The translations under genes and the position numbers were made by a program. From Gemmobacter nectariphilus (GTDB lineage: Bacteria > Pseudomonadota > Alphaproteobacteria > Rhodobacterales > Rhodobacteraceae), in contig DYMU01000015.1 of assembly GCA_020721445.1 (NCBI GenBank), positions 1 through 33,577 of the forward strand: 33,577 bases of DNA, read 5' to 3'. A model generated the notes under the pieces. It saw only the letters and a program-made list of their open reading frames with translations. It was not told where the DNA came from and made no database searches. Positions 5,243 through 32,096 of this stretch are shown here, in pieces (the first letter of the stretch is position 1; each line of letters opens with the position of its first letter).

Positions 5243-6369
5243 CCCACGGCGTGGCGCAGACGACAGCGATGCAGACCACAGGCGTCGCCGTGCTGGGCGG
5301 CGGACTGGCGGGGTTGAATGCTGCGCGCCTGTTGCAGCAGGCCGGCATCCCCTGCCATCTGTTCGAGGCGCGTGACCGCCTTGGCGGGCGCATCCTTACC
5401 GTCGACGCGACGGGCAAGCCCTCCACGGACGGTTTTGACCTTGGCCCGTCATGGTTCTGGCCGCACATGCAGCCAGAGCTTGCGGCGCTGGCCAGCGAAT
5501 TGGGGGTTCCGGCCTTTGCCCAGCACACCGCCGGCGACATGGTGTTCGAGCGCAGCCAGCGCGAGCCGCCGCTTCGGACGGACTGGGCCGGGCAGGATCA
5601 GGGGTCGATGCGGCTGCGGGGCGGGATGGGTGCGTTGGTGCAGGCCTTGGCGCAAGGTCTGCCTTCGGGCTGTGTTCGGCTGAACGCGCCGATCACCCAC
5701 CTGCGGCTGGGGCAAGATGGCGTCGTTCTGGACGTTGCCGTCGATGGCCGCCCCCCGGAACAGTGGCTGGCCCGCCACGTGATCTCGACCCTGCCGCCGC
5801 GCCTGATGGCCAAGGCCATCCGCCTTGACCCGGCGATGGACCCGGCAACGATCAGCCGCTGGCAGAACGTGCCGACATGGATGGCACCGCATGCAAAGTT
5901 CGTGGCCCTGTATGACCGGCCGTTCTGGCGTGCGGCGGGACTGTCGGGCATGGCGCAAAGCCTTGTTGGCCCCCTGACCGAAATCCATGACGCCACCACC
6001 GCCAGCGGTCATGCCGCGCTGTTCGGCTTTGTCGGTGTGCCCGCCCGAACCCGCGCCACCCTGTCACGCGACGCCTTGGGTCGCGCAGCACTGGACCAGT
6101 TGGCCCGTCTGTTCGGATCGCAGGCCGCCACCCCGCGCGCCACCTTGCTGAAAGACTGGGCGACAGACCTGTTCACCGCAACCCAAGGCGACAGCGCGCC
6201 GTCCGGCCACCCGACCGCACCCGATGCGCCCATGGTGACTGGGCGCTGGGCGGATCGCCTGTCGCTGGCTGGCAGCGAAAGCAGCCACACCGAACCCGGC
6301 TATCTGGCCGGGGCGGCAGAGGCCTCAAACAGGGTGACACGGGCCTTGATCAAACGCCTGAGCATCTAA
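5239..6369 (+). CDS. FAD-dependent amine oxidase-like oxidoreductase
   Basis: The 376-residue protein begins with the dinucleotide-binding motif VAVLGGGLAGLNAARLL and FEARDRLGGRI, the FAD-binding pattern of flavin amine oxidases. GLGALVQAL-like sequence (residues about 130-140) and the C-terminal SHTEPGYLAGAAEASNRV, which contacts the flavin, complete the fold. It is shorter than most monoamine oxidases (about 450), has no export signal and no obvious covalent-FAD cysteine. The ATG overlaps the cupin stop (ATGA), so the two are translationally coupled and probably act together. The substrate cannot be told from sequence; an amine, amino acid or polyene is possible. A second in-frame ATG lies at 5269. 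Confidence 0.83.
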   Translation: MTHGVAQTTAMQTTGVAVLGGGLAGLNAARLLQQAGIPCHLFEARDRLGGRILTVDATGKPSTDGFDLGPSWFWPHMQPELAALASELGVPAFAQHTAGDMVFERSQREPPLRTDWAGQDQGSMRLRGGMGALVQALAQGLPSGCVRLNAPITHLRLGQDGVVLDVAVDGRPPEQWLARHVISTLPPRLMAKAIRLDPAMDPATISRWQNVPTWMAPHAKFVALYDRPFWRAAGLSGMAQSLVGPLTEIHDATTASGHAALFGFVGVPARTRATLSRDALGRAALDQLARLFGSQAATPRATLLKDWATDLFTATQGDSAPSGHPTAPDAPMVTGRWADRLSLAGSESSHTEPGYLAGAAEASNRVTRALIKRLSI

Positions 6370-15551: not shown

Positions 15552-17036
15552 ATGACCCATATCCTTGCCATTGATCAGGGCACCACGTCGTCGCGGGCCA
15601 TCCTGTTCGACGCCGGGCTGCGGGTGGTGGCCACGGCGCAGGAAGAGTTCCGCCAGATCTACCCCGCCCCCGGCTGGGTCGAGCATGACCCCTCGGACCT
15701 GTGGGCCACCGTGGCCGGCACCGCCCGCGCCGCCATCGAAAAGGCCGGGGTGGATGCGCGTACCATAGCCGCCATCGGCCTGACCAACCAGCGCGAGACG
15801 ACGCTGATCTGGGACCGCGAGACCGGCCAGCCCATTCACAACGCCATCGTCTGGCAGGACCGCCGCACCGCCCCCACCTGCGAGGCTTTGGCGGCAGCAG
15901 GCCATGCCGCGATGATCACCGCCCGCACCGGCCTGCTGCTGGACCCGTATTTCTCGGCGACCAAGGTCAAGTGGCTGCTGGACCATGTCGAAGGTGCGCG
16001 GGCCCGCGCGCAGCGCGGCGCGCTGATGTTCGGCACCGTCGATACCTATCTGATCTGGAAGCTGACCGGCGCGCGCACCCATGCCACCGACGCCAGCAAC
16101 GCCGCGCGCACCATGCTGTACAATATCGCGACCGGTCAGTGGGACGCCGAGATTTGCGGCCTGCTCGACATCCCGATGTCCCTGCTTCCCGAGGTCCGCG
16201 ACTGTGCCGCTGACTATGGGGTCACCCGTGCCGACCTGTTTGGCCGCGAAATCCCGATCCTTGGGGTGGCGGGCGATCAGCAGGCGGCGACCGTGGGGCA
16301 GGCGTGCTTCACCCCCGGAATGATGAAATCGACCTATGGCACCGGCTGCTTTGCCTTGCTGAACACCGGGTCCGACCGGGTGCCATCAAAGAACCGGCTG
16401 CTGACCACCATCGCCTATCAGTTGAACGGGAAACCGACATATGCGCTGGAAGGCTCGATCTTCATTGCGGGGGCCGTGGTGCAATGGCTGCGGGACGGGC
16501 TGAAGATCATCCGCGAGGCCAAAGAGACCCAACCGCTGGCCGAACAGGCCGACGAGGCGCAGGGCGTGGTGCTGGTGCCGGCCTTCACCGGTCTGGGCGC
16601 GCCCTACTGGCGGCCAGACTGCCGGGGGGCGATCTATGGGCTGACCCGAAACTCTGGCCCGGCGGAACTGGCGCGCGCGGCGCTGGAGTCGGTTGGCTAC
16701 CAGACCCGCGATCTGCTGGAGGCGATGAAGGCCGATTGGGGTGCCGCGGCGGATGGTGTGCTGCGGGTTGATGGGGGCATGACGCACAGCGACTGGGCGA
16801 TGCAGTTCCTGTCCGATATTCTGGGCGCGCCGGTTGACCGCCCGGTTGTGACGGAAACCACCGCTCTGGGGGCGGCCTATCTGGCCGGGTTGCAGGCCGG
16901 CATCTGCCCCGCACCGGCCGAGTTTCAAAAGACATGGGCGCTGGAGCGACGCTTTTCCCCGGTGATGGACCCAAAGGTGCGCGCCGTGAAATATGCGCGG
17001 TGGGGGCGGGCGGTTGCCGCCACGATGTCGGTATGA
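15552..17036 (+). CDS. glpK: Glycerol kinase
   Basis: The 494-residue kinase phosphorylates glycerol to sn-glycerol-3-phosphate in the cytosol, which traps the imported substrate. The FGGY fold is shown by [13 protein letters not shown] (residues 7-19, phosphate loop), [19 protein letters not shown] with the following [10 protein letters not shown] (glycerol site), [26 protein letters not shown] and [20 protein letters not shown]. The start at 15552 has GAGGAG upstream; the frame extends to 15510 but that part lies in the inverted repeat. The stop overlaps the next ATG by four bases. Confidence 0.97.
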
Positions 17037-18181
17037 CGCCGTTTGGCATTGCCGCGCCGGGGCGCATCCTGTTCGGGCGCGGCGAGGCGGCAAAGGCTGT
17101 CGGGCTGATCACGGCTTACGGTCAGCGGGGGGTTGTGGTGCATGGCGCGCAGGCGGCACGGGTGGCCTGGCTGATCGACGGTTTGCAGCGGGGCGGGGCC
17201 GATGTGCTGGCGCTGTCTTGTCCGGCCGAACCGACGCTGGCCATGCTGGACCAAGCCTTGGCAGCCGCGCGGGCGCACGGCGCGCAATGGGTGGTCGGCA
17301 TCGGCGGTGGCGCAGCACTTGACCTTGGCAAGGCGGTTGCGGGGCTTGCCCCCGGCACGACCCCCGCGATGGACCATCTGGAGGTGGTTGGCCGCGGGCT
17401 GCCGCTGTCTGCCACGCCGCTGCCGTTCATCGCGATACCGACCACCAGCGGCACCGGCGCCGAGGCGACCAAGAACGCTGTCATCGGCAGTCCCGAACAC
17501 GGCCGCAAGGTCAGTGTGCGCGACGACCGGATGCTGGCGCGTCTGGCCATCGTCGACCCGGCGCTGACCGATGGTTGCCCGCGTGGGGTCACCCTTGCCT
17601 CGGGTCTGGATGCGCTGACGCAGGTGATCGAGCCCTATGTCTGCACCCGATCGACCCCGTTTACCGATGCGCTGACGCTGCCGGCGATACCGTTGGGCAT
17701 GCGTGCCCTGATGCGGTTGATGCAGGGCGAAGACCCGCAGGCGCGCGACGACCTTGCCTGGGTCAGCCTGTGTGGCGGGCTTGCGCTGGCGAATTCGGGG
17801 TTGGGGGCGGTGCATGGTTTGGCGGGGGTGATCGGCGGGCTGATCCCGGCCGCACATGGTGCGATCTGCGGCGCGCTTCTGGGCCCGGTTCTTGCGCTGA
17901 ACCGCCAACGGGCAAGCGGGCCCGCGAAGGAAAGGCTGGGCACGGTGTGCGATATGCTGGCCAAGGCTTTGGCGTCAACGCCCGACGAGGCCCCGGCCGC
18001 CCTTGCCCGCTGGGCACGGGGCGCAGGGTTGCCAAGTCTGGCCACGCTGGGCCTTGACCCCGCGCAGCACCCGACCGTGGCGGCGGCAGCGGCGGCGTCT
18101 TCGTCAATGAAGGCCAATCCGGTGGTTCTGTCGACGGCCGAACTGATCGAAGCCTTGCGCCGCGCCGACGGGTGCCCATGA
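17033..18181 (+). CDS. Iron-type (group III) alcohol dehydrogenase with a changed metal site
   Basis: The 382-residue protein belongs to the iron-containing alcohol dehydrogenases, NAD(P)-dependent enzymes acting on alcohols or aldehydes. It shows the nucleotide-binding run [17 protein letters not shown] (88-104) and [15 protein letters not shown] (136-150). By comparison with lactaldehyde reductase (Asp196, His200, His263, His277), the metal ligands fall at Asp193, Gln197, His261 and His275, so one His is Gln. Some members of the family carry DALTQ here, so this may define a subgroup. Coupling to glpK (ATGA overlap) suggests a role with glycerol or a C3 product, for example a side reaction on dihydroxyacetone or an aldehyde; the substrate is unknown. 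Confidence 0.88.
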
Positions 18182-22505: not shown

Positions 22506-22513
22506 CCCATCGC

Positions 22514-22555
22514 CACCAGCGTGAACGTCAACGCTGCTGGGCGGCAGTTGTTTTT
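22514..22555 (+). terminator. Probable terminator after the L,D-transpeptidase gene
   Basis: CAGCGT (22517-22522) pairs with ACGCTG (22531-22536), and three further pairs form beyond a C-C mismatch. A T-rich run TTGTTTTT ends at 22555, about 12 bases past the stem, further than ideal. The remaining bases up to 22765 contain no gene that I can support. Confidence 0.5.
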
Positions 22556-22765
22556 CGGGGTATGACGGATATCCTTGGTCGCGCGGTGCAAAAGCCGGTG
22601 ATCGCCCATCGGCATTTTCATGACTGCTGAAATGGTGGGCGGTTTGTGTCTTGATGCCAACGAAATGGGCTTAGACCCCCTGATGTGCGATCCGGTTCCG
22701 GTGCGCGCAGCGTTCTGATCCGTGTGCCTGTTATGCAGGGGCATCCAGCGAAAGAAAAAGTGCTC

Positions 22766-25700
22766 ATGTCGATCAAAGCCGCTATTCACCACCTGACCCA
22801 TTACAAATATGATCGGCCGGTTACGCTTGGCCCGCAGATCATCCGCCTGCGCCCGGCACCGCACAGCCGCACACGGGTGATCTCGCATTCGCTGAAGGTC
22901 AGCCCGGGCGGGCATTTCGTGAACCACCAGCAAGACCCGTTCGGCAACTGGCAGGCGCGGTTTGTATTTCCCGAACCGGTGACCGAGTTCAAGATCGAGG
23001 TCGATCTGGTGGCAGACATGACGGTGTATAACCCGTTCGATTTCTTCGTCGAGGAAAACGCCGACACCTGGCCGTTTGAATATGCGCTGGACATGGAAGA
23101 AGATCTGGCGATCTACCGCCGGTGCGAACCCGCCGGCCCGCTGTTGCAGGCGTTTCTGGACAGCGTGCCGAAGGATACCCTGCGCACGGTTGATTTCATC
23201 GTGGCCCTGAACGCCAAGGTGGCCAATACGCTGCACTACACCATCCGCATGGAACCCGGCGTGCAGACGCCCGAGGAAACGCTGGGCGTCAAAAGCGGGT
23301 CGTGCCGCGATTCGACCTGGCTTTTGGTGCAGGCCTTGCGCCATCTTGGCTTTGCCGCGCGGTTCGTGTCGGGCTATCTGATCCAGTTGAAACCCGACCT
23401 GAAGGCGCTGGATGGCCCGTCGGGCACCGAGGTGGATTTCACCGATCTGCATGCCTGGGGCGAGGTGTTCCTGCCCGGCGCGGGCTGGATCGGGCTGGAC
23501 CCGACCAGCGGGCTGTTGGCGGGCGAAAGCCATATTCCCCTGGCCGCCACCCCGCATTACCGCAGCGCCGCCCCGATCAGCGGACGGGCCAGCTTTGCCG
23601 AGGTGGACTTTTCGTTTGACATGTCGGTGACCCGCGTCGCCGAACATCCGCGCATCACCAAGCCGTTCAGCGATGATGCCTGGGATGAGTTGAACGCGCT
23701 TGGCCACAAGGTGGATGCGGCCTTGGCGGATGGCGATGTGCGCCTGACCATGGGCGGCGAGCCGACCTTTGTGTCGATTGATGATTTTGAGGCCGAGGAG
23801 TGGAACACCGCCGCGGTTGGCCCGACCAAGCGCACGCTGGCCGACCAGTTGATCCGCCGCCTGCGCGACCGTTTCGCCCCGGGTGGGTTCCTGCATTATG
23901 GTCAGGGCAAGTGGTATCCGGGGGAAACCCTGCCGCGCTGGACGTTTTCGTTGTATTGGCGCAACGACGGCTATCCGATCTGGTCGGATGCGGCCCTGAT
24001 TGCACAGGAAGGCGCGCAGACCGGCGTCACCACCGTAGACGCGCAAAACCTGCTGGTGCAGATCGCCGAGGATCTGGCGCTGGAAACCGACTGCATTCTG
24101 CCAGCCTATGAAGACCCGGCGCAATGGTTGGTCAAAGAGGCCAACCTGCCCGACAACGTGACCCCGGCCAATTCCAAGCTGAAGGACGCCGAGGAACGCC
24201 ACCGCCTTGCCACCGTGTTCAACCGCGGGCTTACCAACCCTTCGGGTTTTGTGTTGCCGGTGCAAAGTTGGCAGGCGCAGGCTGCGGGGCGGCGCTGGCG
24301 CACCGAAAAGTGGCGCTTGCGCCGCGGGCACATGTTCCTGGTGCCGGGGGATAGCCCGGTTGGCTATCGTCTGCCGCTGGAAAGTCTGCCTTGGGTGCCT
24401 GCGTCGCAATACCCCTATATCAACCCGACTGATCCCACGGTGGACCGCCCGCCGCTGCCAGTCCCGGGGCCGGTGCCAAACGCCCCCGCCGTGTCAGAGG
24501 CGCGGCCGCAATCCCCGGCCAGCTTTACCGCCGCCAGTGCGCAAGGCGCGCAGGTGGCGCAAGGCTCACCGCTGCACGAGGTGGACGGGCATATCCGCAC
24601 CGCCTTGTCGGTGGAACCGCGCGACGGGCGGCTGTGCGTGTTCATGCCGCCAGTGGTGTCGATCGAAGACTACCTTGACCTTTTGCGCGCCGCCGAGGCT
24701 GCTGCGAAAAAGCTGGGGTTGAAGGTGCATATCGAAGGCTATGCCCCGCCGCAGGACCCGCGTCTGAACGTGATCCGCGTGGCCCCCGACCCCGGCGTGA
24801 TCGAGGTGAACGTGCATCCGTCGCGCACTTGGCAGGACTGTGTCGATATCACCACGGCGGTGTATGAGGAGGCGCGGCAAACCCGCTTGGGTGCCGACAA
24901 GTTCATGATCGACGGCAAGCATTGCGGCACGGGGGGCGGCAACCATGTTGTCGTCGGCGGGGCCACGCCGAACGACAGCCCGTTCCTGCGCCGGCCTGAC
25001 CTTTTGGCCAGCCTGATCCTGCACTGGAACCGCCATCCGTCGCTGTCTTACCTGTTTTCCGGCCTGTTCATCGGCCCCACCAGCCAGGCCCCGCGCATGG
25101 ACGAGGCCCGGCATGACAGCCTGTATGAGATGGAAATCGCGCTGTCGCAGATCCCTGCCCCCGGTCAGGGGGCGGCGCCAATGCCTTGGCTGGTGGACCG
25201 CCTGTTGCGCAACCTGCTGACCGATGTCACCGGCAACACCCACCGGGCCGAGATTTGCATCGACAAGCTGTATTCCCCCGATGGCCCCACCGGGCGGCTG
25301 GGGCTGGTCGAGTTTCGCGGTTTCGAGATGCCGCCCGACGCGCGGATGAGCTTGGCCCAGCAACTGCTGATCCGGGCGCTGATTGCGCGGTTCTGGGCCA
25401 ATCCGGCGCAGGGTGAATTGACCCGCTGGGGCACGGCCCTGCACGACCGTTTCATGCTGCCGCATCATGTTTGGCAGGATTTCCGCGATGTTCTGGCCGA
25501 CCTTGCGCAGCATGGCTTTGCCCTGCGCAAAGAGTGGTTCACCGCGCAGGCCGAGTTCCGCTTTCCGTTTTGCGGCGAGGTGAGTTACGAGGGGGTGCAT
25601 CTGGAACTGCGCCAAGCGCTGGAGCCTTGGCATGTGCTGGGTGAAACCGGGGCGATCGGCGGCACGGTGCGCTATACCGACAGTTCGACCGAACGCTTGC

Positions 25701-26110
25701 AGGTGAAGCTGTCGGCCGCCGATCCGTCGCGCTATCAGGTGCTGTGCAACGGCCGTGTGGTTCCCCTGCATGCGGCAGGGTCGGGGCAGGCGGTGGCAGG
25801 GGTGCGCTACAAGGCTTGGCAACCGGCGTCAGCGATGCACCCGGTCTTGCCGGTCGATGCACCGCTGACCTTTGATATCCATGACACATGGTCAGCGCGG
25901 GCGCTGGGGGGGTGCGTCTATCACGTCGCCCATCCGGGGGGGCGCAACTATGAAACCTTTCCGGTCAACGGCAATGAGGCCGAGGCCCGGCGTCTGGCAC
26001 GGTTCGAGGCGCATGGCCACACCCCCGGCCATGGCATGCACCCGCGCCCCGAGCGGGTGCACCCCGAGTTTCCGCTGACCCTTGACCTGCGGCGTCCAGT
26101 GGGGCTGTAG
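22766..26110 (+). CDS. Transglutaminase-like / DUF2126 fusion protein
   Basis: This 1114-residue protein joins two parts. Residues 1-270 are a bacterial transglutaminase-like module with its N-terminal beta domain and the thiol-protease triad Cys180 (SGSCRDS), His229 (DLHAWGE) and Asp245 (IGLDPTSG); such domains usually cleave or exchange amide bonds. Residues from about 300 onward are DUF2126, which I recall being grouped with glutamine synthetase-like carboxylate-amine ligases; [14 protein letters not shown] (719-732) resembles the glycine/His loop of that fold. No signal peptide is seen, so it is cytosolic. The ATG at 22766 has only a weak AAAG upstream; another frame start is at 22685. 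It ends seven bases before the next gene. The substrate is unknown. Confidence 0.9.
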
Positions 26111-26117
26111 TCCGATA

Positions 26118-28526
26118 ATGGACAGGGTGGCAGACGCGGCGGCGGCAAAGGCAGATCAGGGCGCAAGGCGCGATCTTGGTCTGCGCAGCTATACCCCGCT
26201 GCGGGGCGCCCCCGACGAGATGCTGGTGAACGGCACCATCCGTCCGCTGTGGCAGCCGCTGATCGACCATCTGCGCAGCCTGACAGAAGACGGGCTGACC
26301 CGCGCCACCGGGCGGGCCGATCAATACCTGCGCGATTCCGGCGTGTTCTACCGGCAATACGGGGCCGGCCAGTCGGTGGAACGGGCCTGGCCTCTCAGCC
26401 ATATTCCGGTGCTGATCGACGAGGCCGACTGGACCGAGCTGTCCGCCGCGCTGATCCAGCGCGCCGACCTGCTGGAAGCCTTGATGGCCGATCTTTACGG
26501 CGCGAACCGGTTGGTGGCCGACGGGCATCTGCCGCCGTCGCTGGTGGCAGGCAACCCCGAATGGCTGCGGCCCATGGTGGGGGTGCGGCCCCGGTCGGGG
26601 CATTACCTGCATTTCGTGGCGTTTGAAATTGGCCGTGGTCCGGATGGCAAGTGGTGGGTGCTGGCCGACCGCACGCAGGCACCATCTGGCGCGGGCTATG
26701 CGCTGGAAAACCGCGTGGCCACCAGCCGTGCCTTTTCCAGCGTGTTTGAAGGCCAGAACGTCCACCGTCTTGCCGGGTTCTTCCGTGATTTCCGCGATGC
26801 GCTGGTCGGCCTGCGCAACGAAGGTGATGGCAGGGTCGCCATCCTGACGCCGGGCCCGATGAACGAGACCTATTTCGAACAGGCGTGGATCGCCCGCTAT
26901 CTGGGTTTTGCGCTGGTGCAGGGCGAGGATCTGACGGTGGAGGGTGGCCGGCTGATGCTGCGCACCGTAGCGGGCCTGCGTCCGCTGGATGTGCTGTGGC
27001 GCCGGCTGGATGCCAGCTATGCCGATCCGCTGGAGTTGGACCCCGCCTCGCGCATTGGCACGCCGGGCATGGTGTCGGCGCTGCGGCAGGGCGGGCTGAC
27101 CATGGTCAACTGCCTTGGCTCGGGTGTGCTGGAAACGCGGGCTTTGATGGCTTTCATGCCGGCTTTGGCGCGGCAACTTCTGGGTGCGCCGCTGGCGATG
27201 CCCAACATCGCGACCTGGTGGTGCGGCGGGGCGAAACAACGCGCCCGGGTCATGGCAGACCCGTCGCGTCTGGTGCTGGGGGCGGCGCTTGGCACAGGCC
27301 TGCCGTTTGACCGGCAGGGTGACGCCATCCCGGCTGCCAGCCTGTCATCCGCCGACCTGATGGACCGCCTTGCCCGTGACGGGGCAGCCCTTGTGGCGCA
27401 AGAGGCGGTGACCTTGTCGACCACGCCGGCGCTGGTTGATGGCCGCATCGTGCCGCGCCCGATGAGCCTGCGGGTGTTTCTGGCGCGCACCCCGCGCGGC
27501 TGGCAGGTGATGCCGGGCGGCTTTGCCCGCATTGGTGCCGCAGCCGATGCCACCGCCCTTGCCATGCAGCAAGGTGGCACGGCGGCGGATGTCTGGATCG
27601 TCAGCAAGGACGACGTGCCCAGCATTACCATGGTCACGCCGTCCGAAGGCCCCTATCGCCGGGCCTCGCCGGGGGCCTTGCCCGCGCGGGCGGCGGATAA
27701 CCTGTTCTGGCTCGGCCGCTATGTCGAACGCACCGAAGGCATCGTGCGGCTTTTGCGGGCGCGTCACATCCGGCTGGCCGAAGGCGGGCGCGCGGCGTTG
27801 CCATTGCAAAAGGTGGTGGACAAGATCCTTGCCAGCTATGGGGTCGAAGGCCGCGACGGCATCCCGCAAGGGTTGCTGGAGACGCTGGGTGCGGCGGTGA
27901 TGGCGGCCGGTCAGGTGCGCGACAGGTTTTCGCCCGACGGCTGGTCGGCGCTGAATGATCTGGACAAAAGCGCGCGGCGGATGGCCAGTCGCGTGACTGC
28001 GGGCGATGATGCCGCGCGGGCGTTGTCGGCGCTGTTGCGCAAACTGGCGGGCTTTTCCGGCCTTGTGCATGAAAACATGTATCGCTTCTTTGGCTGGCGC
28101 TTTCTGTCGATCGGGCGGCAGCATGAACGCGCGCTTGGCATGACCAACCTGCTGGCCGTCCTTGCCGATGCCGATGCCCCGCCCGGCGCGTTGGATCTGT
28201 GCATCGAACTGGGCGACAGCGTGCTGACCCACCGTCGCCGGTTCACCGTGGCATCGTCGCGGCAGACGGTGATTGACCTTCTGGCACTGGACCCGATGAA
28301 CCCGCGATCTGTCCGGCATCTGGTGGATGGCTTGAGCGAACAGGTGCAGGTGTTGCCGGGCGCGTCGGTGCATGGGCAACTGTCCGACCTTGGCCGCGCC
28401 ATGCTGCGCTGTCAGGCCGACATCGCCACCGCCACGCCCGAAACCCTGACGACCGAGGCGCTGATCGACCTGCATGGCCGGATTGCCAGCCTGTCCAGCC
28501 TGCTGACCGAGGCGTATTTGCGGTGA
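26118..28526 (+). CDS. Circularly permuted ATP-grasp / alpha-E domain protein
   Basis: The 802-residue protein has an N-terminal circularly permuted ATP-grasp domain (about residues 60-480), a predicted carboxylate-amine or peptide ligase that forms an acyl phosphate with ATP. Typical runs are YRQYGAGQSVERAWPLSHIP, WWVLADRTQAPSGAGYALEN and AILTPGPMNETYFEQAWIAR. The second part, from about residue 520 (ARAADNLFWLGRYVERTEGI), is the all-helical alpha-E domain, found almost always with this ligase. The ATG at 26118 is seven bases after the preceding stop, without a clear ribosome binding site, so coupling is likely. The 3' end overlaps the next gene by four bases. Fused order ligase then alpha-E in one chain is known in the family. 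Confidence 0.9.
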   Translation: MDRVADAAAAKADQGARRDLGLRSYTPLRGAPDEMLVNGTIRPLWQPLIDHLRSLTEDGLTRATGRADQYLRDSGVFYRQYGAGQSVERAWPLSHIPVLIDEADWTELSAALIQRADLLEALMADLYGANRLVADGHLPPSLVAGNPEWLRPMVGVRPRSGHYLHFVAFEIGRGPDGKWWVLADRTQAPSGAGYALENRVATSRAFSSVFEGQNVHRLAGFFRDFRDALVGLRNEGDGRVAILTPGPMNETYFEQAWIARYLGFALVQGEDLTVEGGRLMLRTVAGLRPLDVLWRRLDASYADPLELDPASRIGTPGMVSALRQGGLTMVNCLGSGVLETRALMAFMPALARQLLGAPLAMPNIATWWCGGAKQRARVMADPSRLVLGAALGTGLPFDRQGDAIPAASLSSADLMDRLARDGAALVAQEAVTLSTTPALVDGRIVPRPMSLRVFLARTPRGWQVMPGGFARIGAAADATALAMQQGGTAADVWIVSKDDVPSITMVTPSEGPYRRASPGALPARAADNLFWLGRYVERTEGIVRLLRARHIRLAEGGRAALPLQKVVDKILASYGVEGRDGIPQGLLETLGAAVMAAGQVRDRFSPDGWSALNDLDKSARRMASRVTAGDDAARALSALLRKLAGFSGLVHENMYRFFGWRFLSIGRQHERALGMTNLLAVLADADAPPGALDLCIELGDSVLTHRRRFTVASSRQTVIDLLALDPMNPRSVRHLVDGLSEQVQVLPGASVHGQLSDLGRAMLRCQADIATATPETLTTEALIDLHGRIASLSSLLTEAYLR

Positions 28527-29410
28527 CGACCTATGCCTTGCGCCTTGTCATCAGCTATGACTTTGCCCGCCCGATCGGCGCGGGGCGGCAGTTGTTCCGC
28601 ATCCTGCCCGCCGATGTGGCGGGGGTGCAAATCGTGCGCGGGGCCAAGGTGCGCCTGACGCCCGACCCGACCGATCGGGGCGAGTTCAAAGATTTTTTCG
28701 GCACCCGTGTGATCGAGGTGGCGATGCCCCCCGGTTTGACCCAGTTGGAACTGGTGCTGGAGGCGGCGGTCGATCGGGTTGCGTCCGAAGGGTTTCTGGA
28801 CATCTCGCCGCCACTGGCACGGCTGACGCAGGAATTGGCCGCCTGGCGCGACATCGGCCCGGCCTCGCCGCACCATTTTCGCACCCCGTCGCGGCGGATA
28901 CCGCAGATGCCCGAAGTGGCGGGTTTTGCGCAGGCGGCGGTTGCGGGCTGTGTGACGGTGCACGAGGTGGTGCAAGCTCTGGGCGAGGGCCTGCACCGCC
29001 ACATGACCTTTGACGCCAAGGCCACCAGCGTTGACACCTCGCCCGAGGATGCGTTCACGCTGCGGCGCGGGGTCTGTCAGGATTTCGCGCAGATCATGGT
29101 CGGCGGCTTGCGCAGCCTGGGCGTGCCGGCGGCCTATGTTGCGGGCTATCTGCGCACCGACCCGCCACCCGGCAAGGCCCGTCTGGCCGGGGCCGACGCC
29201 ATGCATGCCTGGGTAAGGGCTTGGGCGGGTGAGGAAATGGGCTGGATCGACTATGATCCGACCAACGCCTGCTTTGCCCGCGCCGACCATATCGACGTGG
29301 GCTTTGGCCGCGATTATGCCGATGTCGCCCCGGTGACCGGTATGCTGCGGCTGGATGGCAGCCAGAAGGGCAGCCATCAGGTCGATATCGAGGAGGTGTT
29401 GTTGCCGTAA
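28523..29410 (+). CDS. Second transglutaminase-like protein of the ligase cluster
   Basis: The 295-residue protein has a beta-rich N-terminal domain (SYDFARPIGAGRQLFRILPA) and a transglutaminase-like domain with Cys185 (RRGVCQDFAQIM), His228 (DAMHAWVRAW) and Asp245 (IDYDPTN). It begins at a GTG that overlaps the stop of the ATP-grasp gene (GTGA), so translation is coupled. No signal peptide is visible. It probably acts as a peptidase or amide-exchange enzyme on the product or substrate of the upstream ligases. It converges on dctR with a 44-base gap in which I see no terminator. Confidence 0.92.
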   Translation: MTTYALRLVISYDFARPIGAGRQLFRILPADVAGVQIVRGAKVRLTPDPTDRGEFKDFFGTRVIEVAMPPGLTQLELVLEAAVDRVASEGFLDISPPLARLTQELAAWRDIGPASPHHFRTPSRRIPQMPEVAGFAQAAVAGCVTVHEVVQALGEGLHRHMTFDAKATSVDTSPEDAFTLRRGVCQDFAQIMVGGLRSLGVPAAYVAGYLRTDPPPGKARLAGADAMHAWVRAWAGEEMGWIDYDPTNACFARADHIDVGFGRDYADVAPVTGMLRLDGSQKGSHQVDIEEVLLP

Positions 29411-29454: not shown

Positions 29455-30063
29455 TCAGGCCAGGGGCCGGAACTCTCCCACCAGACGCGCCAACTCCATC
29501 GCGTTGCGCACCCCGGTTTTTGACAGGATGCGGCTGCGATGCACCTCGACCGTGCGGATGGCGATGCCCAGGGTCTCGGCGATCTGCTTGTTCAGGTGGC
29601 CTTGCAGCATCAGGTGCATCACCTCATCCTCGCGCGCCGACAGGGTGGCCAGACGGCTGGCAATGTCGCGGCGGGTGTCGGCTTCGGCCGCAGCCGCCCG
29701 GTGGCGGGCAATCGCCTCAAACGCGCGTTCGACAATCAGGTTGTCGTTGAACGGCTTTTCGACAAAATCGAACGCCCCGGCCTTCAGGCTTTGCACCGCC
29801 ACCGGCACATCGGCGTGCCCGGTCAGAAAGATGACCGGCGCCCGAAAATCGGCGGCGCGCAGGCGGTCAAACACTTCCGTCCCGGACAGGCCCGCCATCC
29901 GCACATCCAGAATCAGGCAATCGCAATCCCCGTGCGGCAGGGCGGCCAGAAACGCCTCGCCCGAGGGCCAGCCCTGCGCCTGCACCCCACGAGACGCGAA
30001 CAGAAACGACAGTGCGTCGCGGATTGTTTCCTCATCATCCACAATATGAATGGTTCCGGTCAT
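29455..30063 (-). CDS. dctR: FixJ-family response regulator DctR
   Basis: The 202-residue protein has a receiver domain (residues 1-120) with acidic pocket Asp9-Asp10, phosphorylation site Asp53 (CLILDVRMAGLSG), Thr in FLTGHADV and Lys in FVEKPFND. A LuxR-type helix-turn-helix follows: LSAREDEVMHLMLQGHLNKQ, IAETLGIAIRTVEVHRSRIL. It overlaps the kinase gene by four bases. The pairing with a DctS-like kinase and divergent dctP matches the Rhodobacter capsulatus dctSR-dctPQM locus, where the pair turns on C4-dicarboxylate uptake. Confidence 0.9.
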   Translation of the reverse strand: MTGTIHIVDDEETIRDALSFLFASRGVQAQGWPSGEAFLAALPHGDCDCLILDVRMAGLSGTEVFDRLRAADFRAPVIFLTGHADVPVAVQSLKAGAFDFVEKPFNDNLIVERAFEAIARHRAAAAEADTRRDIASRLATLSAREDEVMHLMLQGHLNKQIAETLGIAIRTVEVHRSRILSKTGVRNAMELARLVGEFRPLA

Positions 30064-32096
30064 TCGGCGGCGACTTTCCGTGAGATCTGACCGGGCAGGG
30101 TGATGCGAAACACCGTGCCGCCGCCATCACGCGGGGCATGGGTCAGATGACCGCGGTGCAATTCCATGATCGACCGGCAGATGTTCAGCCCCATGCCCAT
30201 GCCCTGCGGTTTGGTCGAGGTGAAGGCATCGAACAGCCGCCCCTCAAGTTCTGCCGGGATGCCGTCGCCCCGGTCGGCGACGTCGATGATGGCGCTGCCA
30301 CCTGGCCCCGCGCGCAAGGCCACGTCCAGCCTGCGGCCCGGCTGGCTGGCCATCGCCTCCATGCCGTTGCGGATCAGGTTGATCAGCACCTGTTGCAGCA
30401 AGATGCGATCGGCCGGAACGGCCGGCAGATCGGCAAGCCCGGTCACGATCTGCACCCGGTTTTCACGCGCGTCTGCGGCCAGAAAGCCCACGGTTTCGGT
30501 GATCACCTCAGCCAGCGAGACATCGTCAAAGCTGGGTTCGCGCTTCTTCACCAGATCCTGTATGCGCCGGATGATCTGCCCGGCACGATTGGCCTGCACC
30601 GACAGTTTGGCCACTGCCGGGTGCAACACCGCCGGGTCGGCGCGGCCGCTTTGCAGCAGGTTTTGCAAGCCCGCCGCATAGCTGGCAATCGCGCCAAGCG
30701 GCTGGTTCAATTCATGCGCCAAAGTCGAGGCCATTTCCCCCAGCGTCACCAGACGCCCGGTGCGGGCCAGGTTTTCATCCTGTGCGCGGGCCAGCCGCGC
30801 GGCGGTCTTGGCCTGGGTGATGTCGATCACCGACCCCATCCAGCCGCGATGCGCGCCGGTGGCGTCGATCAGCGGGGCTTCATACACCTGCACGTCGATT
30901 TCGCTGCCATCGGCGCGACGAAACCGGGTTTCAAAGGCTTGCGGCGCGGCGCCACTGTTGGACAGGGCCTGCTGCCGGGCCAAGGTTTCGTCCAGCCGGT
31001 CGGGCGACCAGTAGGGCATCGGGGGCGCGCGATCCATCAGGTCATCGGCGGCAAAGCCGACCAGCTGACAAAACGCCGAGTTGACGTAAAGCACGCGCCC
31101 GTCATGGTCCTTGGCGCGCAGACCCACGGTCAGGCTGTCTTCCATCGACCGGCGAAAGGCGATCTCGCCGCGCAGCCGCGCCTCGGCCTGACGGCGGCGT
31201 TGGGCGCTGCGATACAGCGCCAGCAGGGCAAGAATGGCAAAAGCGGCAAAGCCCGCGATTGCCGCCAGCAGCAGCACATTGGCAAAGGCGGTTGGTGCGG
31301 CATAGGCGGTGATCCGCAACACCGTGCCGCGCAACGGCGGGTCAAAGCTGATGCCATGCGTCGGGTTCACCGGGTCGGGCGTGCGGCGCACCCGGCTGGC
31401 CAGAACCGTGCCGCCGGTATCGGTCAGGGTGACGGCGTATTGCTCGGCAATCCACCACGGGATGTGCCGCTCCAGCATCAGGGGCAGTGCCACCGTCGCC
31501 GTCAGCACCCCCGCCCCCTGTTCGCTGCGCACGGCCATGGTGACGGTGTCGCCGGTCACATCGCCATAGACCGGGCGTGCCGACACGCTACCGGACCGCA
31601 GCATCAAGGCCACCAGCGCCGGATCGCGTGGCGCAGCCAGCCCCGGCACCCCGCGCACGGGCACGCCGTTTGCATCATGCCAGACAATCGACAGCACCTC
31701 GGGGTTGGTGGCCACATGCAGGCGGGCACGGGCGGCCAGCACGTCGGGCGCGGCCCCGCTGGCCTGATCCAGCGCCAGACGCACCAGCATGTCTTCATCG
31801 ACTGAAAGCTGAAACCGCAGCGTCTGTTCCACCCACAGCGCATCAGTCGCAAGCTTGGTGCGGGCCTGTTCCGCCTCGGACCGGGTGACCGCCCAGACCA
31901 GTGCCGCCACCAGCGCGATCAGGGCGACAATGGCCACCAGCGGGATCAGCGACAGAATGTCGATGCCACGGGCCGGGTTCCCGCTGGTGCTGGCCCAAGG
32001 GTCGCCCCCGGATGCGGTCTTGCCCGCCGCCTTTTGCTTGTCCGGCTCTTTCAGCGGCCTGCCCTCCTCGACAGCGCGATGCCTGATGCGACACAA
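30060..32096 (-). CDS. dctS: Membrane sensor histidine kinase DctS
   Basis: The frame gives up to 678 residues with membrane helices near 48-71 and 272-296 enclosing a periplasmic sensor domain of about 200 residues, then a PAS domain (about 318-430), His461 in the H-box HELNQPLGAI and ATPase boxes NLIRNGMEAM, DRGDGIPAEL and GMGMGLNICRS. This is the DctS plan, a sensor of extracellular C4-dicarboxylates. The start is uncertain: no ATG or GTG begins the frame. TTG at 32096 is the furthest start, while a strong GAGGAGGG precedes a CTG at 32054 by seven bases and would remove 14 residues. The gene diverges from dctP. Confidence 0.88.
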   Translation of the reverse strand: MCRIRHRAVEEGRPLKEPDKQKAAGKTASGGDPWASTSGNPARGIDILSLIPLVAIVALIALVAALVWAVTRSEAEQARTKLATDALWVEQTLRFQLSVDEDMLVRLALDQASGAAPDVLAARARLHVATNPEVLSIVWHDANGVPVRGVPGLAAPRDPALVALMLRSGSVSARPVYGDVTGDTVTMAVRSEQGAGVLTATVALPLMLERHIPWWIAEQYAVTLTDTGGTVLASRVRRTPDPVNPTHGISFDPPLRGTVLRITAYAAPTAFANVLLLAAIAGFAAFAILALLALYRSAQRRRQAEARLRGEIAFRRSMEDSLTVGLRAKDHDGRVLYVNSAFCQLVGFAADDLMDRAPPMPYWSPDRLDETLARQQALSNSGAAPQAFETRFRRADGSEIDVQVYEAPLIDATGAHRGWMGSVIDITQAKTAARLARAQDENLARTGRLVTLGEMASTLAHELNQPLGAIASYAAGLQNLLQSGRADPAVLHPAVAKLSVQANRAGQIIRRIQDLVKKREPSFDDVSLAEVITETVGFLAADARENRVQIVTGLADLPAVPADRILLQQVLINLIRNGMEAMASQPGRRLDVALRAGPGGSAIIDVADRGDGIPAELEGRLFDAFTSTKPQGMGMGLNICRSIMELHRGHLTHAPRDGGGTVFRITLPGQISRKVAAE

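Follow-up and report, generated by a model that had tools for sequence, protein, structure and literature searches.

In a 33,577-nucleotide stretch of the Gemmobacter nectariphilus genome (contig DYMU01000015.1 of assembly GCA_020721445.1, here called the window), three packed genes, all on the plus strand, encode a transglutaminase-like (TG) protein fused to DUF2126, a circularly permuted (CP) ATP-grasp fused to an Alpha-E domain, and a second TG protein. We propose, at a probability slightly below one half, that this cluster is the DUF2126 branch of the Anbu/CP-ATP-grasp/Alpha-E/transglutaminase family of amide-chemistry systems, and that it most likely serves in nitrogen scarcity. The window probably holds one ligase, DUF2126, and one pseudo-ligase, the fused ATP-grasp, further partners being encoded in other parts of the genome. 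Neither the family nor the association of its genes is new. Published work is cited below by PubMed Central accession, from excerpts of the papers.

A sequence-only reading of the window had described these genes, with a gap of 7 bases between genes 1 and 2 and an overlap of 4 bases between genes 2 and 3, and their coordinates and spacing are as claimed. The domains that it named were all recovered by Pfam search (Bact_transglu_N, Transglut_core, DUF2126, CP_ATPgrasp_2 and Alpha-E), while NCBIfam gave no family for any of the three proteins at E 0.01. By-eye inspection of the three N-termini revealed no evident export signal. The features are as follows.

22506 to 22765, no strand: leader from the upstream gene to gene 1, with little conservation across six Rhodobacterales loci
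22766 to 26110, plus strand: gene 1, TG protein fused to DUF2126 (ATG start, 1114 residues)
22781 to 23014, plus strand: Bact_transglu_N (PF08379) of gene 1, residues 6-83 (Pfam, 98.5 bits)
23189 to 23503, plus strand: Transglut_core (PF01841) of gene 1, residues 142-246 (Pfam)
23303-23305, 23450-23452 and 23498-23500, plus strand: codons of the gene 1 triad Cys180, His229 and Asp245
23597 to 26092, plus strand: DUF2126 (PF09899), residues 278-1109, a predicted glutamine-synthetase-like amidoligase (Pfam, 1333.6 bits; cut-off 27)
26118 to 28526, plus strand: gene 2, CP-ATP-grasp fused to Alpha-E (ATG start, 802 residues)
26406 to 27533, plus strand: CP_ATPgrasp_2 of gene 2, residues 97-472, judged catalytically degenerate (Pfam, 434 bits)
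27678 to 28520, plus strand: Alpha-E (PF04168) of gene 2, residues 521-801 (Pfam, 177 bits)
28523 to 29410, plus strand: gene 3, second TG protein, consisting of Bact_transglu_N and Transglut_core by Pfam (GTG start, 295 residues)
28925 to 29260, plus strand: Transglut_core of gene 3 (Pfam)
29075-29077, 29204-29206 and 29255-29257, plus strand: codons of the gene 3 triad Cys185, His228 and Asp245

Judging by its active-site residues, gene 2 is most likely a pseudo-ligase, that is, a catalytically dead ATP-grasp. Its structure model, with a predicted local distance difference test (pLDDT) score of 86.8, best matches 3n6x, a CP-ATP-grasp protein (template modelling score, TM-score, 0.83 by target length), followed by glutathione synthetases and glutathionylspermidine synthetase. 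Glutathione synthetase itself uses two lysines to bind the phosphates of ATP and acidic residues to coordinate magnesium (PMC2845819). We compared 26 stand-alone CP-ATP-grasp proteins, including one from the Anbu operon of the same genome, with fused homologues in alignments anchored on 3n6x; 107 fused rows were complete at the eight positions considered, 9 of 116 having been dropped for gaps. All 26 stand-alone proteins keep D143, E156, N158, R160, K317, K364, H422 and D424, among which K317, K364 and E156, matched by order and motif, would be the phosphate-binding lysines and a metal ligand. The stand-alone residue is retained in few of the 107 fused copies at E156 (2), N158 (0), R160 (1), K317 (1), H422 (3) and D424 (0), in 15 at K364 and in 56 at D143. 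The window protein has E, A, R, Q, R, G, P and S at the eight positions in sequence order. In its own numbering, residue 183 is Ala (Glu in the stand-alone proteins), 185 is Arg (Asn), 341 is Arg (Lys) and 388 is Gly (Lys), and it lacks the E-x-N motif, both presumed phosphate-binding lysines and the G-loop. Whole stretches have changed, from LEDNLR to LADRTQ, from DDK to ETR and, in the G-loop, from VVKEV to VLGAA, and these changes are placed alike by HMMER alignments of gene 2 alone and of both families' profiles to 3n6x. Other sites, among them R172, R272, D247, D279 and N307, are retained in 104 to 116 of the 116 fused rows. In a tree of 56 rows, a single branch with support 100/100 splits 30 fused from 26 stand-alone proteins. 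With its ATP-site residues gone, the window copy of gene 2 gives no evidence for an active ligase. The sequence-only reading had itself named missing ATP-site residues as a result that would refute it, and for the CP-ATP-grasp of gene 2 they are missing. Its interpretation is thus supported in part.

DUF2126 is the probable ligase of the cluster, on the strength of its predicted structure. The region matches its Pfam profile over the full length and far above the cut-off, and Pfam describes the family as a putative amidoligase. The structure model is moderate (pLDDT 68.4, predicted TM-score 0.73). In a Foldseek search against the PDB, it gave two matches below E 1e-3, both to glutamine synthetase (GS), the better at E 5.7e-4, and at least 48 of the best 50 of 189 rows (to E 10) belong to the GS superfamily, comprising glutamine synthetases, YbdK, gamma-glutamylmethylamide synthetase and GS homologues. 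A GS-like fold is therefore the likely one by the model's own structural neighbours. Sequence searches of the PDB with gene 1 and with the DUF2126 profile returned nothing useful.

Both TG domains carry the Cys-His-Asp triad of the transglutaminase-like superfamily, as the sequence-only reading had held. The triad C180/H229/D245 of gene 1 is invariant in 73 of 73 aligned copies and C185/H228/D245 of gene 3 in 66 of 66, after copies had been filtered by length. Since the triads are intact, the TG domains are presumably thiol enzymes acting on amide bonds. Two more transglutaminase-core genes, without a Bact_transglu_N domain, lie on contigs C23 and C27 of the same genome.

The family is widespread. 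At E 1e-3, DUF2126 was detected in 36 of 120 genomes from the window organism's own family and in 92 of 299 from its phylum, Pseudomonadota, and a scan of species genomes yielded at least 592 relatives; the nearest named one among the matches listed is from Pseudorhodobacter sp. MZDSW-24AT, with DUF2126 88% identical. The best 80 of these relatives and three plasmid loci formed a set of 83 loci, all picked for having DUF2126 and, because the best relatives were taken, leaning to alphaproteobacteria. By tblastn, 75 of them have a gene of the gene 2 type and 73 one of the gene 3 type, and the acidobacterium Granulicella has the identical three-gene order. Synechococcus elongatus and Azospirillum brasilense Sp7 are among the laboratory strains with DUF2126. 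The arrangement is conserved across loci and is therefore not due to chance. Five loci (L090, L104, L111, L113 and L137) have gene 1 without genes 2 and 3 nearby though the contig continues, the rest of these genomes not having been searched for them.

The window cluster probably depends on partners encoded elsewhere and is not self-contained. Among the 299 genomes of the phylum, 92 have DUF2126, 115 have Anbu (E 1e-10) and 171 have Alpha-E. A stand-alone CP-ATP-grasp query finds its best match at E 2e-145 or lower in all 92 DUF2126 genomes; the fused copy of the window scores merely 224 bits against it. Because these matches are far stronger than a fused copy gives, each DUF2126 genome appears to hold a stand-alone ATP-grasp, a protein whose active-site residues were examined in the 26 representatives compared above. 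At least two Alpha-E genes occur in 86 of the 92 DUF2126 genomes, compared with 11 of 79 Alpha-E genomes that lack DUF2126. Alpha-E is also found in 113 of the 115 Anbu genomes, and DUF2126 and Anbu occur together in 58 genomes (overall association, p 9e-9). DUF2126 and Anbu each resemble an optional addition to a common core. The sole Anbu match found in the window genome lies outside the window, in an Anbu operon on contig C50; this Anbu retains Thr1, Asp17 and Lys32 (numbered from an internal Met), the residues named in PMC6376114. A self-contained three-gene pathway is unlikely, given that all DUF2126 genomes have an ATP-grasp match of stand-alone strength and 58 of 92 have Anbu.

These partners are in some cases encoded side by side. 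Of the 58 genomes that have both DUF2126 and Anbu, 11 place Anbu no more than 1 kb from the DUF2126 match, upstream in 8 and downstream in 3, and the three downstream loci (L155, L159 and L160) lack a fused gene 2 in the sequence retrieved. In Pseudooceanicola pacificus (L071), the Anbu operon is adjacent and divergent. The stand-alone ATP-grasp shares a stretch with DUF2126 in 23 of 46 further loci and in just 4 of the first 83 (L061, L062, L063 and L071). In Burkholderia cenocepacia (L144), six co-directional genes encode, in order, ATP-grasp, Alpha-E, TG, TG-DUF2126, fused ATP-grasp-Alpha-E and TG.

The link of the family to nitrogen is strong, and for the window organism it is unproven. 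In B. cenocepacia H111, mutation of ntrC lowers the expression of BCAM1233-1236 by 6.0- to 9.4-fold (PMC5491218). Their descriptions, the sole basis on which they were matched, fit the first four L144 genes, and a sigma54-like site lies about 90 bases 5' of the ATP-grasp match in that locus. In P. putida, growth on nitrate relative to ammonium raises the Anbu gene by a log2 value of 4.44 and its ATP-grasp by 3.99 (PMC8050072), and nitrogen limitation, compared with carbon limitation, increases PP2685-2687 by 6.6- to 11.1-fold (PMC3325844). In a survey of sigma54 regulons, one cluster that is enriched in alpha-, beta- and gammaproteobacteria includes the proteasome-type protease COG3484 (PMC12316311), and in marine metagenomes the Bact_transglu_N, Alpha-E and CP-ATP-grasp domains are linked with urea metabolism (PMC3597751). 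A plasmid copy of the cluster in Acidithiobacillus caldus is close to glnL and ntrC.

We also scored sigma54-like sites (maximum score 15.5) upstream of cluster units, in stretches whose limits were set by tblastn match starts rather than by mapped start codons; we chose the threshold of 13.5 with the scores already known. In 40 non-alphaproteobacterial loci, 21 of 70 cluster units reached this threshold; the rate was 10 of 183 for the remaining genes of those loci and 1.8% for shuffles. The 21 sites come from 15 loci, some of which are probably close relatives. At other thresholds, the counts (of 70 and 183, respectively) were 35 and 31 at 12.5, 27 and 22 at 13, 12 and 4 at 14, and 6 and 4 at 14.5.

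Within the window, the cluster is preceded by genes for an L,D-transpeptidase and a phytase-like protein. On its 3' side, on the opposite strand and convergent with it, lie genes for a LuxR-type response regulator and a PAS histidine kinase (29455-32096, minus strand). The further genes scanned encode a lytic transglycosylase, a glutathione transferase, an M24 peptidase, an amine oxidoreductase and a DeoR regulator, along with glycerol-3-phosphate-type oxidation, ABC transporter, FGGY kinase and iron alcohol dehydrogenase genes. An ARAGORN tRNA-like match at 5299-5381, with an odd two-base anticodon, falls just inside the amine oxidoreductase gene on the same strand and is probably a false positive.

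Clustering of the neighbours in the 83 loci, in which L078 (about 48% G+C) gave no gene calls, placed a broad ABC-transporter ATPase family near the cluster in 19; beyond this family and a zinc metallopeptidase, no family was common across lineages, and the recurrent ones look lineage-specific. The metallopeptidase is a family of about 371 residues on the opposite strand in seven loci (L063, L104, L118, L119, L125, L132 and L134), with a median distance to gene 1 of about 250 bases. It is a zinc-ribbon putative metallopeptidase (PF15887 plus PF10005) in L125 and L119, is annotated so in L063, and has a tblastn match in 7 of the 46 further loci. In Rhizobiaceae (for example L072-L075, L079, L084, L088 and L092), the cluster lies near glycogen and starch genes. 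The family whose L075 member is a glycogen phosphorylase is downstream of the cluster in 14 loci, and L111 is surrounded by GlgB, amylase-family and 4-alpha-glucanotransferase genes; glycogen builds up under nitrogen limitation in many bacteria. In Tabrizicola (L083), an allophanate hydrolase gene (urea degradation; 16285-18090, minus strand) lies about 480 bases 3' of gene 3 on the opposite strand. A 90 kb plasmid of Enterobacter roggenkampii (L061) carries the cluster in a version with five genes, flanked by insertion sequences and close to arsC, which shows that a small plasmid can harbour it. On the A. caldus plasmid (L062), the TG and DUF2126 parts are in separate frames, and two Anbu-like matches, an ATP-grasp and an Alpha-E lie near glnL-ntrC and an aliphatic amidase, amid insertion sequences.

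How might such a cluster work? DUF2126, if its model is a guide, would use ATP to couple a carboxyl group with an amine, and the TG domains of genes 1 and 3 would act on that type of amide bond by hydrolysis or exchange. The pseudo-ATP-grasp of gene 2, with its Alpha-E domain, may be a scaffold or regulator of DUF2126, and could still hold substrate because the glutathione-synthetase-like fold is kept. ATP-grasp ligation would instead come from the stand-alone CP-ATP-grasp/Alpha-E pair, here in the Anbu operon on contig C50, and the stand-alone ATP-grasp could supply the group to be joined. The likely purpose would be to store or release the nitrogen of peptides, proteins or polyamines by reversibly attaching to them a small amide or peptide group. 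A far more specific version is a long shot: a nitrogen-starvation protein conjugation system outside actinobacteria, in which DUF2126 would be the glutamine-synthetase-like conjugase, the dead ATP-grasp/Alpha-E protein a partner that controls it and the TG domains deconjugases, with the stand-alone ATP-grasp making the group and Anbu acting as the protease.

Several observations weigh against placing the cluster in a nitrogen-responsive amide-chemistry family with DUF2126 as its ligase. First, the DUF2126 model is mediocre, with 204 of 841 residues at pLDDT below 50. In the comparison with GS-like ligases that the sequence-only reading had called for, the Foldseek rows point to the GS superfamily, but the TM-scores to its structures are about 0.3, and profile-profile comparison of DUF2126, which had a control against TG, gave no match to GCS2 or GS. 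Second, the presence of Alpha-E in 92 of 92 DUF2126 genomes is partly trivial because gene 2 itself carries the domain. The association of DUF2126 with Anbu vanishes once Alpha-E is required (58 genomes with both, 34 with DUF2126 only, 55 with Anbu only and 24 with neither; p 0.42), Anbu was not detected in 34 of the 92 DUF2126 genomes, and the association p-values overstate because genomes and loci are related. Tests of the Yersinia Anbu operon, in the excerpts of PMC6376114, found no interaction or complexes and no Anbu activity. Third, the nitrogen data come from bacteria other than the window organism. In 87 alphaproteobacterial loci, an excess of sigma54-like sites is seen only at the loosest threshold (12.5; 21 of 91 cluster units compared with 115 of 971 other genes, p 0.003) and not at 13 (5 of 91 compared with 48 of 971), 13.5 (2 of 91 compared with 25 of 971) or 14 (0 of 91). 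Against random stretches, the counts are 2 of 94 and 4 of 282 at 13.5, and 24 of 94 and 35 of 282 at 12.5. This group includes a few loci without a class in the title and one metagenome-assembled genome titled Arenimonas, which we take to be a gammaproteobacterial genus. Upstream of gene 1 there is no sigma54-like site with up to two mismatches, and matches in the window are at chance level. Finally, the scanned window neighbours (carbohydrate, glycerol, cell-wall, redox and peptidase genes) include none plainly for nitrogen assimilation. An NtrC/sigma54 promoter in the window itself is unsupported, there being no site before gene 1, and no conserved promoter element was found in the six Rhodobacterales leaders.

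Among other explanations, a small-molecule pathway holds up best, though we consider it unlikely. DUF2126 and the stand-alone ATP-grasp would make a gamma-glutamyl or peptide-amine metabolite, in the manner of glutathionylspermidine synthetase and gamma-glutamylmethylamide synthetase, with the TG domains as its amidases, comparable to the amidase half of glutathionylspermidine synthetase/amidase. The fold neighbours of both ligase-like proteins do make small gamma-glutamyl amides or glutathione, and the NtrC regulon table that lists the Burkholderia genes also has putrescine/spermidine transport genes (PMC5491218); yet no single-function transporter or amine-metabolism family recurs across lineages in the 83 loci, and Anbu, as a proteasome relative, points to peptides. 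Protein tagging of the pupylation kind, in which DUF2126 would attach a tag, the TG domains remove or exchange it and Anbu degrade the tagged protein, is improbable. Tagging was earlier proposed for the Anbu operon (PMC6376114), the combination of a GS-like ligase, a proteasome relative and nitrogen stress resembles the Pup system, and Anbu and DUF2126 are adjacent in the 11 genomes noted above. Set against this are the DUF2126 genomes without detected Anbu and the lack of a conserved small protein in the flanks of 12 Rhodobacterales loci, the rest of the genome not having been searched for one. We give equally little credence to a purely catabolic system, in which TG-like peptidases and Anbu would obtain nitrogen by degrading peptides or amides, and the domains that resemble ligases would do no more than bind substrates. 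The degenerate site of gene 2 would suit it, as would the DUF2126 motif GGEPTF, in which Thr occupies what we take to be the position of the second Glu of a GS-family GxExE motif. Many charged residues of DUF2126 are nevertheless invariant across 18 copies, and the site of the stand-alone ATP-grasp is intact, a relative of that protein releasing phosphate from ATP (PMC6376114). Least credible is gene 2 as an active second ligase with a rearranged ATP site, which would restore a two-ligase picture and could cite the well-predicted fold, many other columns invariant among 23 copies and the G-loop lysine present in a minority of fused copies; we reject it, the ATP-site residues being absent in the window copy and in nearly all fused homologues, with E156, N158, R160, K317, H422 and D424 each lost in 104 to 107 of 107.

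Our preferred reading, a DUF2126 branch of the Anbu-type family, narrows the question: the fused ATP-grasp-Alpha-E protein is probably no ligase, and DUF2126 is the ligase of interest, to be considered with the stand-alone ATP-grasp and nitrogen limitation. DUF2126 occurs in 92 and Anbu in 115 of 299 Pseudomonadota genomes, yet the literature searched names no substrate, as the sequence-only reading had also stated. The Yersinia Anbu operon tested in PMC6376114 has four genes, and a text search of that paper gave no mention of DUF2126. No paper in the literature searched has DUF2126 and transglutaminase together, and PF09899 occurs once in the text of PMC11597610. Neither the dead ATP-grasp nor the combined nitrogen evidence was found in the literature searched, which did not cover Iyer et al. 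2009, so an earlier description is possible. That amidoligase work is reportedly where the association of ATP-grasp, Alpha-E, TG and Anbu was noted, citing papers crediting it so. If the conjugation scheme were true, a nitrogen-starvation conjugation system would exist as a parallel to Pup and the proteasome across Proteobacteria and beyond.

The closest known system is the Anbu operon of P. putida (PP_2685-2688) and Yersinia bercovieri, which consists of the same families as the window cluster and of which the window genome has a copy on contig C50. Induction under nitrogen limitation is reported for the P. putida operon (PMC8050072, PMC3325844). The window cluster likewise encodes CP-ATP-grasp, Alpha-E and TG together, but it lacks Anbu and has in addition DUF2126 and a second TG protein, and its ATP-grasp is fused to Alpha-E and without the catalytic residues. 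In B. cenocepacia, the NtrC-dependent BCAM1233-1236 (DUF404/407, DUF403, TG and a large TG protein) appear from their descriptions to be homologous genes, with no homologues of genes 2 and 3 among the published rows listed (PMC5491218); the window genome differs in having its stand-alone ATP-grasp, Alpha-E and TG genes on another contig and no sigma54-like site before gene 1. A more distant likeness is to the glutathione synthetases and to glutathionylspermidine synthetase/amidase, whose folds the gene 2 model matches, although gene 2 lacks the residues that would bind nucleotide and metal. Glutathionylspermidine synthetase/amidase follows a logic of ligase plus thiol amidase. The Pup system, for its part, uses a GS-superfamily ligase. 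As far as it is described in the excerpts we drew on, the Pup-proteasome system further shares with the present one a proteasome-type protease and a setting of nutrient stress; it differs in that no Pup-like protein was found in the flanks of the 12 Rhodobacterales loci, and in that Anbu takes the place of the 20S proteasome.

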